A stretch of 64,000 nt of DNA from positions 16,616 to 80,615 of the forward strand of contig CACHNE010000005.1 in NCBI GenBank assembly GCA_902581145.1. The letters run 5' to 3'. The position numbers and the translations under genes were made by a program. Source of the DNA: an uncultured Bacteroidota bacterium. Its GTDB lineage: Bacteria; Bacteroidota; Bacteroidia; Flavobacteriales; Flavobacteriaceae. Below the pieces are notes generated by a model that saw only the letters and a list, made by a program, of their open reading frames with translations, did no database searches and was not told the DNA's origin. Below, piece by piece: positions 9,605 through 48,184 of this stretch. The stretch's first letter is position 1. The number at the start of each line of letters is the position of its first letter.

Positions 9605-9661
9605 ATGAAAAAATTACAATTAAATATGTGGTGGTGGAAACATGAAATATTCATTTCGTGA
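9605..9661 (+). CDS. trpL: trp operon leader peptide MKKLQLNMWWWKHEIFIS
   Basis: 18-codon ORF with three consecutive TGG codons, located between a candidate promoter and a Rho-independent terminator upstream of trpE. Confidence 0.93.
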   Translation: MKKLQLNMWWWKHEIFIS

Positions 9662-9698
9662 GGTAGTCGCTATATTTTAATTTGAAAAAAAGCTTATC
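9662..9698 (+). promoter_or_regulatory. Candidate antiterminator helix of the trp attenuator
   Basis: GGTAG(tc)GCT at 9662-9671 can pair with AGCTTATC at 9691-9698 (two G-U pairs, one 2-nt bulge), competing with the terminator's 5' arm. Hand-folded. Confidence 0.55.
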
Positions 9699-9719
9699 AT
9701 CACGATAAGCTTTTTTTTT
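9685..9719 (+). terminator. trp attenuator terminator
   Basis: AAAAAAAGCTTATC-ATCAC-GATAAGCTTTTTTTTT: 7-bp core extended by A/T pairs, ending in a 9-T run. Confidence 0.92.
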
Positions 9720-9746
9720 GTTCATGATTGGTTTTAGTTTGTTTTT

Positions 9747-9783: not shown

Positions 9784-11181
9784 ATGAAAAAATTTAGATT
9801 AAAGACATATAAAAAGAAATTTTTAGTAGACACAATTACGCCTGTAAGCGTTTATTTAAGAATTAGAGATAAATATCCTAATAGCCTTCTCTTAGAGAGT
9901 AGCGATTACAACTCAAATAATAACAGTTTCTCATATATATGCTTTAATCAGATTGCATCTTTTGAAGTTTTTGAAGATATTCTATCAACGAAATTTCCTG
10001 ACAAGTCAAACAATGAAATTTCTTGCTCTAAAGAAAATTTAATCATTGAACTGCAAAATTTCATAAATCGATTTAAAGTTGAATCTTCTGAATTACCATT
10101 CATTAGCAACGGTCTTTTTGGATACACCTCTTATGATGCTGTAAAATATTTTGAGGATATAGAAATTAGTGTGAAAGATGATTCAGTAAAAATTCCTGAT
10201 ATGTATTATGGTATTTATAAAAATATTATTGCAATTAATCATTTCAAGAACGAGGCATATATTTTTTGTCATTCTTCAGATGAGCAAAATAATATTGACA
10301 AAATATATCAACTTATAAAAGTATCTAGTTCAAGTAATTATAAATTTAATTCTATTGATGATATAAATTCAAATCTAACTGACAAAGAATTTATAAAACA
10401 AGTTAATTACGCCAAGAATCATTGTAAAAGGGGAGACGTTTTTCAACTGGTTTTATCTAGGCGATTTTCTCAAAAATTTTCTGGAGATGACTTCAATGTA
10501 TACAGAGCACTAAGAAGTATAAACCCCTCTCCATACTTATTTTATTTTGATTATGGAGGTTACAAAATTTTTGGTAGTTCACCGGAAGCCCAACTTGTTA
10601 TCAAGGAAAAGTTAGCTGAAATTCACCCTATCGCAGGTACTTTTAAAAGAACTGGAAATGAAACAGAGGATAAAATACTTGCTGAAAAATTGCTAAATGA
10701 CCCAAAAGAAGGAAGTGAGCATGTTATGTTAGTCGATCTAGCTAGAAATGATTTAAGTAGGAATTGTCAGCTTGTTAAGGTTGAAAAATTTAAAGAAGTT
10801 CAATATTTCTCTCATGTTATTCATTTAGTAAGTAAAGTCACAGGTAAGCTGGATAACAATGATAAAAATTTAAAAATAATTGCAGACACTTTTCCTGCTG
10901 GAACTCTTTCTGGAGCACCAAAACACATGGCTATGACATTAATCGAAAAATATGAAAAAACTAATAGAGGATATTATGGAGGTGCAATAGGAATATTAGA
11001 TTTCAATGGGGATTTTAATCATGCTATAATGATAAGAACTTTCCTAAGTAAAAATAACTTTTTGTATTGGCAAGCAGGTGCTGGGATCGTAGATAAGTCT
11101 GATGAAAATAATGAATTACAAGAGGTTTATAATAAATTAAATGCATTAACAAAGTCAATTAAAATGGCTGATAAATTATAA
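9784..11181 (+). CDS. trpE: Anthranilate synthase component I
   Basis: Chorismate-binding motifs GDVFQLVLSRRFSQKF, FGSSPEAQL, HPIAGTFKRTGNETED, PAGTLSGAPK; first gene of the trp operon. Confidence 0.96.
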   Translation: MKKFRLKTYKKKFLVDTITPVSVYLRIRDKYPNSLLLESSDYNSNNNSFSYICFNQIASFEVFEDILSTKFPDKSNNEISCSKENLIIELQNFINRFKVESSELPFISNGLFGYTSYDAVKYFEDIEISVKDDSVKIPDMYYGIYKNIIAINHFKNEAYIFCHSSDEQNNIDKIYQLIKVSSSSNYKFNSIDDINSNLTDKEFIKQVNYAKNHCKRGDVFQLVLSRRFSQKFSGDDFNVYRALRSINPSPYLFYFDYGGYKIFGSSPEAQLVIKEKLAEIHPIAGTFKRTGNETEDKILAEKLLNDPKEGSEHVMLVDLARNDLSRNCQLVKVEKFKEVQYFSHVIHLVSKVTGKLDNNDKNLKIIADTFPAGTLSGAPKHMAMTLIEKYEKTNRGYYGGAIGILDFNGDFNHAIMIRTFLSKNNFLYWQAGAGIVDKSDENNELQEVYNKLNALTKSIKMADKL

Positions 11182-42511: not shown

Positions 42512-44104
42512 ATGGAATTTAAATTTAAGAAGATACCACAAGAGTTTGAGATAACTGAAAGGATAAAGCAAGATAACTTTCTGATCAATGGAAATTTGGT
42601 TAAGTGGGATGGTGAGTTTTCACCTGTTTATTCTACAATCTCATCAACTCCTGAATATAAGCCTACTAAGCTTGGTGAAATACCAAGTTTGGGTAAAGAT
42701 GAAGCTATTAAGGCGCTAGACTCTGCTTGTAATGCATTTGATAAAGGTAAGGGTTTATGGCCAACGATGAAGGTTGTTGATCGCATTAATGCAATGGAAA
42801 ACTTCGTTAAAGAAATGAAGCAGAAAAGAGATATAGTTGTAAAGTTATTAATGTGGGAGATTGGAAAAAACCATACTGATTCTCAAAAAGAATTTGACAG
42901 AACCGTAGATTACATATACGATACAATAGAAGCTTACAAGAAAATTGATAGAGATTCTGCAAAATTTCAAAAACATAGTGGTATTAATGCACACATTCGT
43001 AGGGGACCACTTGGTGTAGTGCTTTGTTTAGGACCATATAATTATCCATTGAATGAGACATTTTGTCTTTTAATTCCAGCTTTAATTATGGGTAATACAG
43101 TGATATTTAAGCCTGCTAAACACGGTGTGCTATTAATATCTCCATTAATGGAAGCTTTCAAAAAACATTTTCCACCCGGTGTAGTAAATATTTTATTTGG
43201 AAGAGGTAGGGTTTTAGCAACTCCTATTATGGAGTCTGGTAAAGTAAATGTCTTGGCACTAATAGGACACAGTTCATCTGCTAATTCCTTACAAGAATCT
43301 CATCCAAAGAAAAATAGACTAAGATTAGTCTTGGGTCTTGAGGCAAAAAATCCAGCGATTATATTACCAGATGCTGACTTAGACTTAACGATTCAAGAAT
43401 GTATTAATGGATCCCTTTCTTATAACGGACAAAGATGTACCGCTCTTAAAATAATTTATGTCCACGATGAAATTAGAGATGAATTTATCAACAGATTTTC
43501 TAAGGCTGTTGATGAACTAAAATACGGAAATCCATGGGAGGAGAACGTTAGGTTAACTCCGCTACCAGAACCAAATAAACCCAAATACATACAATCACTA
43601 ATTGCTGATGCAAAACAGAAGGGTGCTAAGATAGTTAATCCTAAAGGTGGAGTTCAATGTGAAAATTATGTATATCCAGCTATTTTATACCCTGTCACTA
43701 AAGATATGAGTGTTTATAAAGAAGAGCAGTTTGGACCAGTGATTCCAATAATTTCATTTAAAGATATTAATGAACCTCTTGATGATATGGCAGAATCAAA
43801 TTACGGACAACAGGTTAGTATTTTCGGAAAGGAAACAAAGAAGCTAGGACCTCTAATTGACACCTTAGTTAATTTAGTTTGTAGGGTCAACATAAATAGC
43901 TCATGTCAACGAGGCCCCGATATTTATCCATTTACAGGAAGAAAAGATTCTGCATTCAGTACATTAAGTGTTCATGATGCACTAAGATCATTTTCAATTC
44001 GTACGTTTGTTGCCTCAAAGGATAATAATGAAAATAATAAGATAATCAAAGATTTGTTAAGTTCTGATAATTCTAACTTTGTATCTACAGATTATATTCT
44101 TTAG
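42512..44104 (+). CDS. gapN: NADP-dependent (non-phosphorylating) glyceraldehyde-3-phosphate dehydrogenase-like aldehyde dehydrogenase
   Basis: ALDH fold: [70 protein letters not shown] at 42512 preferred over upstream TTG at 42476. Confidence 0.85.
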
Positions 44105-44161
44105 ATAATTTTCTTTTTTTTAATAAATATTATTTACATTAGACCAATCAATATTTAAAAA

Positions 44162-44221
44162 ATGCTATTTTTTAACTACAACTTTAACTTCTATTACTTC
44201 TTTTATTTAAAAAGGATGTAG
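44162..44221 (+). CDS. Phe/Tyr operon leader peptide MLFFNYNFNFYYFFYLKRM
   Basis: 19-codon ORF with 6 Phe and 4 Tyr (10 of 19), followed by a terminator directly before pheA. Confidence 0.92.
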   Translation: MLFFNYNFNFYYFFYLKRM

Positions 44222-44262
44222 AGGCTGTTGTAATATAACTAATCAAAATTATTTATGGTCTC
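44221..44262 (+). promoter_or_regulatory. Candidate antiterminator helix of the pheA attenuator
   Basis: GAGGCTGT at 44221-44228 can pair with ATGGTCTC at 44255-44262 (8 pairs, 4 of them G-U), competing with the terminator 5' arm. Hand-folded and weak. Confidence 0.4.
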
Positions 44263-44284
44263 GAAATTTCGAGACTTTTTTTTT
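44258..44284 (+). terminator. pheA attenuator terminator
   Basis: Perfect palindrome GTCTCGAAATTTCGAGAC (44258-44275) followed by 9 T; the T-run abuts ATG at 44285. Confidence 0.93.
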
Positions 44285-45112
44285 ATGAAAAAAAATATAG
44301 GTATACAGGGAATAAAGGGTTCATTTCATCACATAGTTGCAAATAACTATTTTGAAGAAGATATTAATTTGATTGAATATCTCTCCTTCGAAGAATTGAT
44401 TTTAAATTTATTTTATGACAAAATAGATTATGCTATTATGGCAATAGAAAATTCTACTGCTGGATCTATTATTCCTAATTATGCATTGATTGATGAATAT
44501 GGAGTAAATATTGTAGGTGAATATTATCTTCAAATAACACATAATTTGATTGCCTTAAAAGGTCAATCAATTGAAGATATAAAAGAAGTTCAGTCTCATC
44601 CCATGGCTCTTCTACAATGCAGAGATTTTTTTAAAGATAATGCTGATATTGTTTTAATTGAGGATAAGGATACGGCTCAGGTAGCAAAGAAAATTTCTGA
44701 AAATAAAATAAAGGGTTTAGGTGCAATTGCAAGTGATTTAGCCTCAAAAATTTATGGGCTTGATATTATAAATGACAATATTCAAACTATAAAAAAGAAT
44801 CAAACAAGATTTGTTATTCTTCAAAAAAAAAGTCTGACTAAAAACTTAAATTTTAATAAGGCATCGGTAAAATTTGAATTGGATCATAAAAGGGGAAGCT
44901 TAGCAGCTATTTTAAATGTTTTAAGTGATTGTAAGTTGAATTTAACAAAGATACAATCAATGCCTATGATTCAAACTCCGTGGAAATACTCATTTTTTGT
45001 TGATGTCACTTTTGATAAATTAGAAGATTATATTAAGGCTAAATCTATAATTGAAATTATGGCTAAAGATTTTAAAGTATTAGGTGAATATAAAAACTCT
45101 AAAGATGATTGA
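44285..45112 (+). CDS. pheA: Prephenate dehydratase (start corrected from 44255)
   Basis: IGIQGIKGSFHHIVANNYF, AIENSTAGSIIPNYALI, TRFVIL, C-terminal ACT region DHKRGSLAAILNVLSDCKLNLTKIQSMP. Confidence 0.95.
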   Translation: MKKNIGIQGIKGSFHHIVANNYFEEDINLIEYLSFEELILNLFYDKIDYAIMAIENSTAGSIIPNYALIDEYGVNIVGEYYLQITHNLIALKGQSIEDIKEVQSHPMALLQCRDFFKDNADIVLIEDKDTAQVAKKISENKIKGLGAIASDLASKIYGLDIINDNIQTIKKNQTRFVILQKKSLTKNLNFNKASVKFELDHKRGSLAAILNVLSDCKLNLTKIQSMPMIQTPWKYSFFVDVTFDKLEDYIKAKSIIEIMAKDFKVLGEYKNSKDD

Positions 45113-46247
45113 ATTTTCAAAAAGAATAGAAGGATTAAGTGAGTATTATTTTTCCTCTAAGCTGAGAGAGGTAAAGTCTTTAATTGACTCTGGAGAAGAT
45201 ATTATCAATCTTGGAATTGGGAGTCCAGATTTATCTCCTCCAAATCCAGTTATAAAAAAATTAAAAGATTCGTTAAATGTTACTGGAGCGCATAAATATC
45301 AAAGCTATATCGGAGTTGAAAGATTTAGAATGGAAATATCAAATTTTTATAAGTTGCATTATGATTGTGATTTAAATTATCAATCTGAAATTTTACCATT
45401 GATTGGAAGTAAGGAGGGAATTTTTCATATTTCAATGTCTTTTCTTTCAGAAGATGATAAAGTCTTAATACCAAATCCCGGATATCCAACATATTCTTCA
45501 ATAACAAAGTTGATTGGAAATGAAATTATATATTATGATTTAAATGAAAAAAATAACTGGTTACCTGACTTGGATCAATTAACTAAACTTGATTTATCTG
45601 GTGTTAAGATAATGTGGATTAATTATCCACATATGCCAACAGGAGCAGTAGCATCCCGTGAGTATTTTTCTAAAATTATAAATTTTGCGAAGTCTAATAA
45701 TATTTTAATCGTAAATGATAATCCATATAGTTTCATTTTAAATGATAATCCGTTAAGCATTATGAATGTTAAAGGAGCAAGAGATATTTGTATTGAGTTA
45801 AATTCTTTAAGTAAAAGTTTTAACATGGCTGGATGGAGATTAGGGTTTGCTGTGTCAAATCCAGAATACATTTCAAATATTTTAAAGGTAAAAAGTAATG
45901 TTGATTCAGGCATGTTTTTTCCTCTTCAAATGGGTGCTGTCTCAGCATTAAGTCAATCAAAGGATTGGTTTAAAAATTTGAACTTTGAATATTCAAAAAG
46001 AAGAAAATTAGTATGGGAATTAGCTGATAAATTAAATTGTGATTTTTCAAGATCTTCATCAGGAATGTTTGTTTGGGCTAAGATTAAAAGTAATAAAACC
46101 TCTATAGATTATGTGGATAATCTTTTAAATGAAAAAGGTATTTTTATTGCACCTGGTAGTATTTTTGGATCAAATGGTGAAGGATATGTAAGGATTTCAC
46201 TCTGCAATTCTGAAACCAATATTAAGAAAGCAATTTCAAGATTATGA
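45105..46247 (+). CDS. Class I/II aminotransferase, probably aromatic/prephenate pathway (start corrected from 45084)
   Basis: NLGIGSPDLSPP, NPGYPTYSSI, NDNPYSFIL, SLSKSFNMAGWRLGFAV; ATG overlaps the end of pheA. Confidence 0.92.
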   Translation: MIEFSKRIEGLSEYYFSSKLREVKSLIDSGEDIINLGIGSPDLSPPNPVIKKLKDSLNVTGAHKYQSYIGVERFRMEISNFYKLHYDCDLNYQSEILPLIGSKEGIFHISMSFLSEDDKVLIPNPGYPTYSSITKLIGNEIIYYDLNEKNNWLPDLDQLTKLDLSGVKIMWINYPHMPTGAVASREYFSKIINFAKSNNILIVNDNPYSFILNDNPLSIMNVKGARDICIELNSLSKSFNMAGWRLGFAVSNPEYISNILKVKSNVDSGMFFPLQMGAVSALSQSKDWFKNLNFEYSKRRKLVWELADKLNCDFSRSSSGMFVWAKIKSNKTSIDYVDNLLNEKGIFIAPGSIFGSNGEGYVRISLCNSETNIKKAISRL

Positions 46248-47098
46248 AAAAGAAAATTTATGTGATTGGTGTTGGTCTCATTGGTGGCAGTTTTGCAATT
46301 GATATGAGAAAGTTATTTCCAAAATCTACAATTATTGGAATAGACAAGTCAGAAATTCACCTTCAGAAAGCTCTTGAGCTAAAGTTAATTGATGAAAAAT
46401 CTGAACTTTCAAAAATAAATAATCCAGATATTATTGTAATTTCAGTCCCTGTTAAATCCATACTTAAAATTCTGCCGATTGTTTTAAAATCTGTTAATAG
46501 TAACAGCTTAGTTATCGATTTTGGTTCCACAAAAAAAAGTATTTGCCAAATTGTAAAAGACCATCCTAATCGTCAAAATTTTCTAGCTACTCACCCGATC
46601 GCTGGAACAGAATTCTCAGGACCCGTGGCTGCTCATGAAGGCTTATTTGAAGGAAAAAATATAATTGTATGCGATAAGGATGAAACAGATAAATCAATAC
46701 TTGAGCTTGGCCTAAAAATATTTAATTTAATGAAAATGAAAATTGGCTATATGGACTCTGATTCTCATGATAAGCATATTGCTTTCGTTTCACATTTATC
46801 CCATATAAGTTCTTTCATGTTAGGTAAAACCGTGATGGATGAAGAAAAAAATGAAAAGAATATTTTTGAAATGGCTGGAAGTGGTTTTGAATCAACAGTA
46901 AGATTGGCAAAAAGCTCACCTGAAACGTGGACAGATATTTTTGAGGATAATAAAAAAAATATTATTAAATCATTAGATGATTACATTGAAAATTTAGTAT
47001 ATATAAATTCTTTGATTAAAAAAGATAGATTCGATGAAGTTGAATCCCAATTAAAGTCAATTAATTATATAAAAACAATTTTAAAAGGAATAAATTAG
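46244..47098 (+). CDS. tyrA: Prephenate dehydrogenase
   Basis: YVIGVGLIGGSFAIDMRK, THPIAGTEFSGPVAA, HDKHIAFVSHLSHISSFML. Confidence 0.94.
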   Translation: MKKKIYVIGVGLIGGSFAIDMRKLFPKSTIIGIDKSEIHLQKALELKLIDEKSELSKINNPDIIVISVPVKSILKILPIVLKSVNSNSLVIDFGSTKKSICQIVKDHPNRQNFLATHPIAGTEFSGPVAAHEGLFEGKNIIVCDKDETDKSILELGLKIFNLMKMKIGYMDSDSHDKHIAFVSHLSHISSFMLGKTVMDEEKNEKNIFEMAGSGFESTVRLAKSSPETWTDIFEDNKKNIIKSLDDYIENLVYINSLIKKDRFDEVESQLKSINYIKTILKGIN

Positions 47099-47101
47099 AA
47101 T

Positions 47102-48184
47102 ATGAAGAATAGTAAAAATTTGAGAAAATGGTTGGATGATATGAATCTTTCACATCCACTTTTAATTGCAGGACCATGTAGTGCCGAAACTGAGAATCAA
47201 GTTTTAGATATTGCCCACCAGCTTAAAGATTCAGATACAATAGTTTATAGAGCAGGTATTTGGAAGCCAAGAACAAGACCTGGAAATTTTGAAGGTGTTG
47301 GTTCCTTAGCATTACAGTGGATGAAAAAAGTAAAAAAAGAGACAGGAATTCTTACTACCACCGAGGTTGCTAATGCTAACCATGTTGACTTAGCACTTAA
47401 AAATGAAATTGATATTTTGTGGATTGGAGCTAGGACAACTGTAAGTCCGTTTATTGTTCAAGAAATTGCAGAATCACTTCGAGGTACCGAAAAAATTGTT
47501 CTAATTAAAAACCCTGTAAACCCTGATTTATCCTTATGGTTAGGAGCAATTGAAAGATTTTTTTCTTCAAACATTAAAAATATTGGAGCAATTCATAGAG
47601 GGTTTTCAACTTATGAAAAAACAAAATATAGAAATAATCCAGAGTGGCAAATTGCTATTGATCTTCAAAGAAGACTTCCTGATTTGCCATTGATTCTCGA
47701 CCCCTCTCACATAGCTGGAAGAAGAGACCTTATTTTTGATTTATGTCAAACTGCACTAGACTTAAATTATGATGGATTGATGATTGAATCACATAATGAT
47801 CCAGATAATGCATGGAGTGATGCTAAACAACAAATAACCCCTGAAAAGTTAAAAGAATTGACTAAAAACCTTACAATCAGACGTGTCACTAATGATGATG
47901 AAGCATATTTAGATAATTTAGATAATTTAAGAGCACAGATTAATGTTCATGACAATCAATTAATCAATATCTTGGGTAACAGAATGAAAGTTGCAGAAAA
48001 AATTGGTCTTTTAAAGAAAAAAAATAATGTCGCTGTACTTCAGTCTAAAAGATGGAATGAAATTTTAGGGAAGATGATTTTAGAAGGCGATGAAAAAAAC
48101 TTAAGTGAAGAATTTATTTTAAAAGTTTTCAAGGCAATTCATCAAGAATCAATAAATCACCAAGAAAAAATATTAAAGAATTAA
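47102..48184 (+). CDS. Bifunctional DAHP synthase / chorismate mutase
   Basis: LLIAGPCSAETENQVLDIA, RAGIWKPRTRPGNFEGVG, LPLILDPSHIAGRR; C-terminal CM helix LRAQINVHDNQLINILGNRMKVAEKIGLLKKKNN. Confidence 0.94.
   Translation: MKNSKNLRKWLDDMNLSHPLLIAGPCSAETENQVLDIAHQLKDSDTIVYRAGIWKPRTRPGNFEGVGSLALQWMKKVKKETGILTTTEVANANHVDLALKNEIDILWIGARTTVSPFIVQEIAESLRGTEKIVLIKNPVNPDLSLWLGAIERFFSSNIKNIGAIHRGFSTYEKTKYRNNPEWQIAIDLQRRLPDLPLILDPSHIAGRRDLIFDLCQTALDLNYDGLMIESHNDPDNAWSDAKQQITPEKLKELTKNLTIRRVTNDDEAYLDNLDNLRAQINVHDNQLINILGNRMKVAEKIGLLKKKNNVAVLQSKRWNEILGKMILEGDEKNLSEEFILKVFKAIHQESINHQEKILKN

Follow-up and report, generated by a model that had tools for sequence, protein, structure and literature searches.

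The pheA gene studied here is preceded by a T-rich intergenic region that holds a short aromatic-rich open reading frame (ORF) and a terminator, which raises the question of whether this region controls the genes behind it, and in response to which signal. The window, meaning the whole stretch of 64,000 nucleotides that was analysed, came from a flavobacterial genome of 1.29 Mb that is 68.5% complete. Four genes are tightly packed on one strand and cover the synthesis of both Phe and Tyr:

44285..45112, + strand: pheA, prephenate dehydratase, the gene that would be controlled (NF008865, 187 bits, under the curated cut-off of 219)
45105..46247, + strand: PLP-dependent aminotransferase, assigned at the level of this class (NF006756, 404 bits, under the curated cut-off)
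46244..47098, + strand: tyrA, prephenate dehydrogenase (NF006307, 349.9 bits, over the cut-off of 295)
47102..48184, + strand: DAHP synthase fused to chorismate mutase (NF006421/NF009239 over 18-258; chorismate mutase domain at about 273-350)

The following features were located between the upstream gene and pheA:

44135..44142, + strand: TACATTAG, probable -7 box of a Bacteroidota promoter (TAnnTTTG type)
44162..44221, + strand: leader ORF MLFFNYNFNFYYFFYLKRM with a TAG stop (homologous leaders in about 130 of 132 pheA-bearing genomes of the family)
44177..44232, + strand: 1:2 hairpin of the ribosome-free state (44177-82/44227-32, 44188-94/44218-24, 44198-204/44210-16), from the MFE and centroid folds
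44189..44206, + strand: dense control-codon block, codons 10-15 (F Y Y F F Y), from the aromatic codon profile before strand 2
44221..44228, + strand: strand 2, 5' arm of the antiterminator (GAGGCUGU), which pairs with 44255-44262 when the upstream RNA is masked (-8.5 kcal/mol)
44255..44265, + strand: strand 3, common to the antiterminator and the terminator (AUGGUCUCGAA)
44257..44284, + strand: intrinsic terminator, an 8-bp stem (44257-44276) with T9 (44276-44284), adjoining the pheA ATG

In all likelihood these features make up a ribosome-mediated transcription attenuator that senses the charging of tRNA-Phe and tRNA-Tyr. Direct observation covers the ORF and the operon, the pairings, which are conserved and co-vary across relatives, and the geometry; that the leader is translated, that ribosomes stall on it, that transcription ends there in vivo and that amino acids set the outcome we infer from these. 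RNA polymerase would start just upstream and make the short leader first. When Phe and Tyr are plentiful, the ribosome would reach the stop codon and cover strand 2; strands 3 and 4 would then form the terminator, and pheA and the following genes would be left untranscribed. When Phe or Tyr is short, the ribosome would stall in the F/Y block and open the 1:2 hairpin, and strand 2, now free, would capture strand 3, so that the terminator would be blocked and transcription would go on. In the absence of a ribosome, hairpins 1:2 and 3:4 would both form and the operon would be off.

The earlier note on this DNA had reported the leader sequence, its position and a content of 10 Phe or Tyr among 19 residues, and all of this proved correct: the peptide contains 6 F and 4 Y and no Trp. 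The perfect palindrome followed by 9 T that it had described was recovered at 44258-44284, ending one base before ATG 44285 (palindrome GTCTCGAAATTTCGAGAC, 44258-44275; T9, 44276-44284). As is typical of a ribosome-mediated attenuator, the ORF is short and rich in codons for the amino acids that the operon makes, and an intrinsic terminator lies between it and the first structural gene. Among 638 short ATG ORFs from the two strands of the window, the pheA leader alone combined an aromatic content of 42% or more with 7 or more aromatic residues. The fold of the leader RNA, a long 1:2 hairpin followed by the terminator, had a z score of -4.33 against shuffles, none of which (0/200) was as good. 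Between 43.9 and 49.2 kb, this was the single terminator detected on either strand. No role as a folded protein is anticipated for the leader peptide.

An in-frame ATG is present at 44255, and an annotator could start pheA there and so hide the terminator inside the gene. Relatives speak against this start, as their protein similarity begins at the position of ATG 44285.

In 126 of 146 loci the motif TANNTT[T/A]G was found in the 60 nt that precede the leader ATG, compared with 11% of shuffles; the consensus TAnnTTTG is that given in PMC9723704. The box TACATTAG was identical in 8 sister genomes. With the predicted promoter box close before the leader ATG, a separate transcript would begin here and the leader would be its first ORF.

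To determine how far the leader is conserved, 151 genomes from the same family were examined, almost every one from a different genus. pheA was present in 132 of them, with matches about 43-66% identical to the PheA of the window. Upstream DNA was read and RNA-model matches were collected, and an aromatic-rich leader with a terminator was found in about 130 of the 132; this comparison of pheA upstream regions was the one that the earlier note had named as able to refute its own reading, and the reading was upheld. In total, 142 distinct leader peptides were obtained, of which MTTTVYYTYFNNWFYFFFSKRNETLYV and MTKQYFWNGFYFYFFFKRSTGLF are typical. No leader was seen in two of the 132 genomes (L114 and L117). 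Four losses had been apparent within 450 nt of pheA, and two of these (G013 and G129) turned out to be displaced leaders farther upstream. The closest named records, with PheA 93-97% identical, were uncultured marine Flavobacteriaceae or Bacteroidetes assemblies, and promoter box, leader, strand 2 and terminator were all kept in them.

A covariance model was built from an alignment of 61 relatives (A1). The model matched 129 of the 151 family genomes, and the best match was nearly always beside pheA. In the window's own genome, the pheA-leader locus was the sole match below E 0.8. Apart from the new leaders described below, secondary matches away from pheA were mostly plain terminators. In other families of the same order, leaders were identified by eye in four (f2, f3, f9 and f15), and none was seen in the loci sampled from three others (f5, f12 and f16; 0.6-Mb genomes). 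At the class level, 14 of 25 loci had a leader (by eye), and these fell into seven families (f17, f18, f30, f31, f50, f55 and f71); examples are MKLFNTYYFGYFYYFSKSRG and MHKQYTYTNFWFFYFYDKSRD, accompanied by antiterminator and terminator sequences that match.

The codon content of the leaders points to more than one amino acid. Phe and Tyr were both present in every distinct peptide (142/142), with means of 5.3 and 3.5, respectively. Trp occurred in 92 of the 142, exactly once in 91 of them, where about 32 would be expected at an assumed 1.1% Trp per codon. A response to Phe alone, with Tyr (and Trp) codons present only as a by-product of T-rich coding or RNA pairing, is unlikely. The leader of E. 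coli pheA, which is Phe-only, is a precedent for such a design, and Phe codons prevail at the two positions nearest strand 2 (115 and 113 of 141); however, no peptide lacks Tyr, which is the commonest residue at -24 (82/141), and tyrA belongs to the same operon. Joint sensing of Phe and Tyr, as the earlier note had suggested, would fit both the conservation of the leader and the content of the operon.

The position of the aromatic codons was measured from the first base of strand 2. The aromatic fraction was 0.90-0.99 at -27 to -15, fell to 0.26 at -12, and was 0.04 at -9. In frame the aromatic fraction was 0.84, compared with 0.24 and 0.29 in the other two frames. If the leading edge of a ribosome lies about 12 nt past the first base of the A-site codon, the codon block ends where a stalled ribosome would just clear strand 2; the control codons are thus sited so that stalling would leave the antiterminator strand free. 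The stop codon in most leaders lies 7-28 nt into or past strand 2, so that a terminating ribosome would cover this strand. In the window, the G-rich strand that the earlier note had placed immediately after the leader stop in fact overlaps the TAG. The C-terminal sequence SKRNEALYV, conserved in much of the family, is probably the coding image of the strands that pair with the Phe codons and the terminator arm.

The RNA pairings that the attenuator would need were then found in the relatives. The inner helices of the 1:2 hairpin reappeared in the RNAalifold consensus of the 61 relatives. The 5' arm of the terminator has its complement in strand 2, and the two vary together across terminator types: GTCTC occurs with GAGAC or GAGGC, GTCCC with GGGAC (24/28), ATCCT with AGGAT (9/10), ATCCC with GGGAT (5/7), and GCCTC with GAGGC (4/4). 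The longest exact Watson-Crick match between strands 2 and 3 had a mean of 6.11 nt, compared with 4.76 (sd 0.09) when strand 3 was dealt at random among the sequences, and none of 500 deals was as high, a statistic that is inflated by kinship among the genomes. Exact matching replaced an earlier swap test by duplex energy including G-U pairs, which was blunt (a median of 16% of swapped strands were as good). In A1, the antiterminator paired in 96.7% of cells, compared with 19-42% when it was slid. In an alignment of mixed subgroups (A2), it was paired in 79.9%, compared with at most 52% when slid, and the gain over shuffles was modest; strand 2 is out of register by one column between the subgroups of A2, so its pair counts understate the helix. 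The data show an antiterminator that excludes the terminator by sharing its 5' arm and that is kept by compensating changes, more weakly on A2.

The mean energies in the family were -13.8 kcal/mol for the antiterminator region of the stalled complex and -13.1 kcal/mol for the terminator. The corresponding values in the window were -8.5 and -10.4 kcal/mol, and its antiterminator ranked 138th of 142, in agreement with the weak pairing remarked on in the earlier note. As the terminator of the window wins at equilibrium, switching would have to be kinetic. Such a weak switch would depend on contact between strands 2 and 3 being established before strand 4 has been transcribed.

The T-run of the window ends one base before the pheA ATG, and Shine-Dalgarno sequences are absent in flavobacteria, according to PMC9723704, so that structure at the start site may matter. 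The hairpin might then act mainly on translation, blocking ribosome entry at the pheA AUG until translation of the leader lifts the block. We regard this as rather improbable, because the spacing between the terminator and the pheA match differs widely among relatives (about 6-114 nt, and over 500 nt in two of them), whereas the U-run is retained along with the geometry of strands 1-4.

Transcription attenuation, the reading that we prefer, was also weighed against a simpler origin of the same parts. The hairpin could be a mere terminator of the upstream aldehyde dehydrogenase gene, which is co-oriented and ends about 150 nt before it, and the short ORF a chance product of T-rich DNA; dinucleotide shuffles of the same intergenic region did yield 10 aromatics in 47 of 3000 cases (1.6%), but in only 4 of 3000 at 50% density. 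This is largely refuted and hardly credible, since leader, strand 2 and terminator accompany pheA over some 130 genera, the aromatic codons are frame-specific, and a promoter box lies between the upstream gene and the leader.

At the gathering threshold, Rfam reported only tRNAs in the window and nothing at the pheA leader, where permissive scans gave sub-threshold matches at chance level. The Phe_leader family (RF01859) scored 18.1 bits in the window and at most 29.7 in sampled relatives, against a gathering score of 55, and Bacteroid-trp (RF01692) had no match up to E 5 at 44100-44300. Although the 5' region is structured and associated with a terminator, it is very improbable that a ligand- or protein-binding element (riboswitch, TRAP-like or PyrR-like) controls it, as no Rfam family reached threshold and conservation falls on the codon block and on the alternative helices, with no conserved aptamer seen.

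A flavobacterial transcriptome study from 2021 (PMC9723704) describes structured 5' elements upstream of pheA and hisG that Flavobacteriaceae share and that have no Rfam hit, and it reports strong indications of leader-peptide attenuation before amino-acid operons. Its pheA element, in Flavobacterium psychrophilum and other Flavobacteriaceae, shares with ours the gene, the bacterial family and the lack of an Rfam match, and judged by gene, taxon and description the pheA leader is very probably that element. In contrast, the main text gives no leader peptide, Phe/Tyr/Trp content, alternative pairing, ribosome geometry or range beyond the family. The term unannotated, used in the earlier note, therefore holds for Rfam, but the conserved 5' element upstream of flavobacterial pheA was already in this study.

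The mechanism is classical and of a kind already known. Like the leader described here, the proteobacterial attenuator of pheA/pheST (Phe_leader, RF01859) combines a leader peptide with 1:2, 2:3 and 3:4 logic and has pheA downstream; it differs in its peptide, which is Phe-only in E. coli, and no homology between the two was established. Bacteroid-trp (RF01692) likewise attenuates an aromatic amino acid operon of Bacteroidota by means of a leader peptide, but it has Trp codons, another operon and another RNA sequence. The trp attenuator of E. coli has the same three states (stalled, terminating and absent ribosome), senses Trp via two adjacent codons, and has its stop codon between strands 1 and 2. 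The parallel with the trp leader drawn in the earlier note thus applies to the three-state logic and fails for the stop codon, which in most relatives lies inside or past strand 2 and not before it as in E. coli trpL. Leaders that each carry control codons for several amino acids are known from E. coli ilvGMEDA and thrABC. The Leu/phe leader of Lactococcus (RF01743, listed in PMC2864571) resembles ours in the same way.

What is new, as far as the open-access literature shows, is the Phe and Tyr (and Trp) logic, the three-state anatomy with its geometry, in which the stop lies past strand 2, and the class-wide range. We know of no multi-amino-acid leader that pairs Phe with Tyr, or Phe with Tyr and Trp. 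Proteobacteria and Actinobacteria are the groups from which leader-peptide attenuation is best known, and according to a survey from 2010 (PMC2965389) it had been shown nowhere else before the survey's own case in Firmicutes. With a leader in nearly every pheA-bearing flavobacterial genus and in several families of the class, attenuation of this type would be a main form of amino-acid control in a group of very abundant marine, soil and host-associated bacteria. It would also amount to a natural sensor that reads two or three amino acids together, and its design rule can be tested directly: the codon block ends about 15 nt before the antiterminator. A broader proposal, tentative and somewhat more doubtful than probable, is that one Bacteroidota leader reads Phe and Tyr, joined by Trp in about 65% of leaders, and thereby governs an operon that includes the entry enzyme of the whole aromatic pathway, and that it belongs to a wider leader-peptide system of the phylum, including Tyr-rich leaders before a hydroxylase and Met/Cys-rich leaders before metY.

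Several other leaders were observed. A second leader attenuator lies in the window at 9606-9740, before trpE at 9784; its peptide MKKLQLNMWWWKHEIFIS has three adjacent Trp codons (WWW), its terminator is at 9688-9714, and Bacteroid-trp (RF01692) matched it with 40.6 bits, below the gathering score of 49. Elsewhere, Tyr-rich leaders with terminators were seen before an aromatic amino acid hydroxylase (MKNLNNTYYYYPILTRRIGQ at L219/L235 in G042, and MKTNRIYTIYMYTFYHRWRAR at L239 in G090), and the leader MTNNNTWWSNSKFYLKR with a terminator directly before a DAHP synthase/chorismate mutase (L220 in G033). No pheA was detected in these three genomes. The hydroxylase leaders are possibly Tyr-sensing attenuators of a Tyr-making enzyme. 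Met/Cys-rich leaders (e.g., MNTIFNFLTFMMMCCMRMMCCYMIRYCQT and MKSLLNKMMCCCMMCMCMHPARYVLKGGT) with terminators preceded metY (O-acetylhomoserine sulfhydrylase) in at least three genomes (L265 in G003, L266 in G048 and L281 in G097), and a weaker case was L290; in other genera the same place is taken by SAM-II riboswitch-like sequences (by eye). The hydroxylase, DAHP synthase and sulfhydrylase of these loci were named by eye from the protein sequence. A longer protein (open frames of about 590 aa) occurs widely in the family; its N-terminal part is like an aromatic hydroxylase, and it is about 30% identical to the short hydroxylase.
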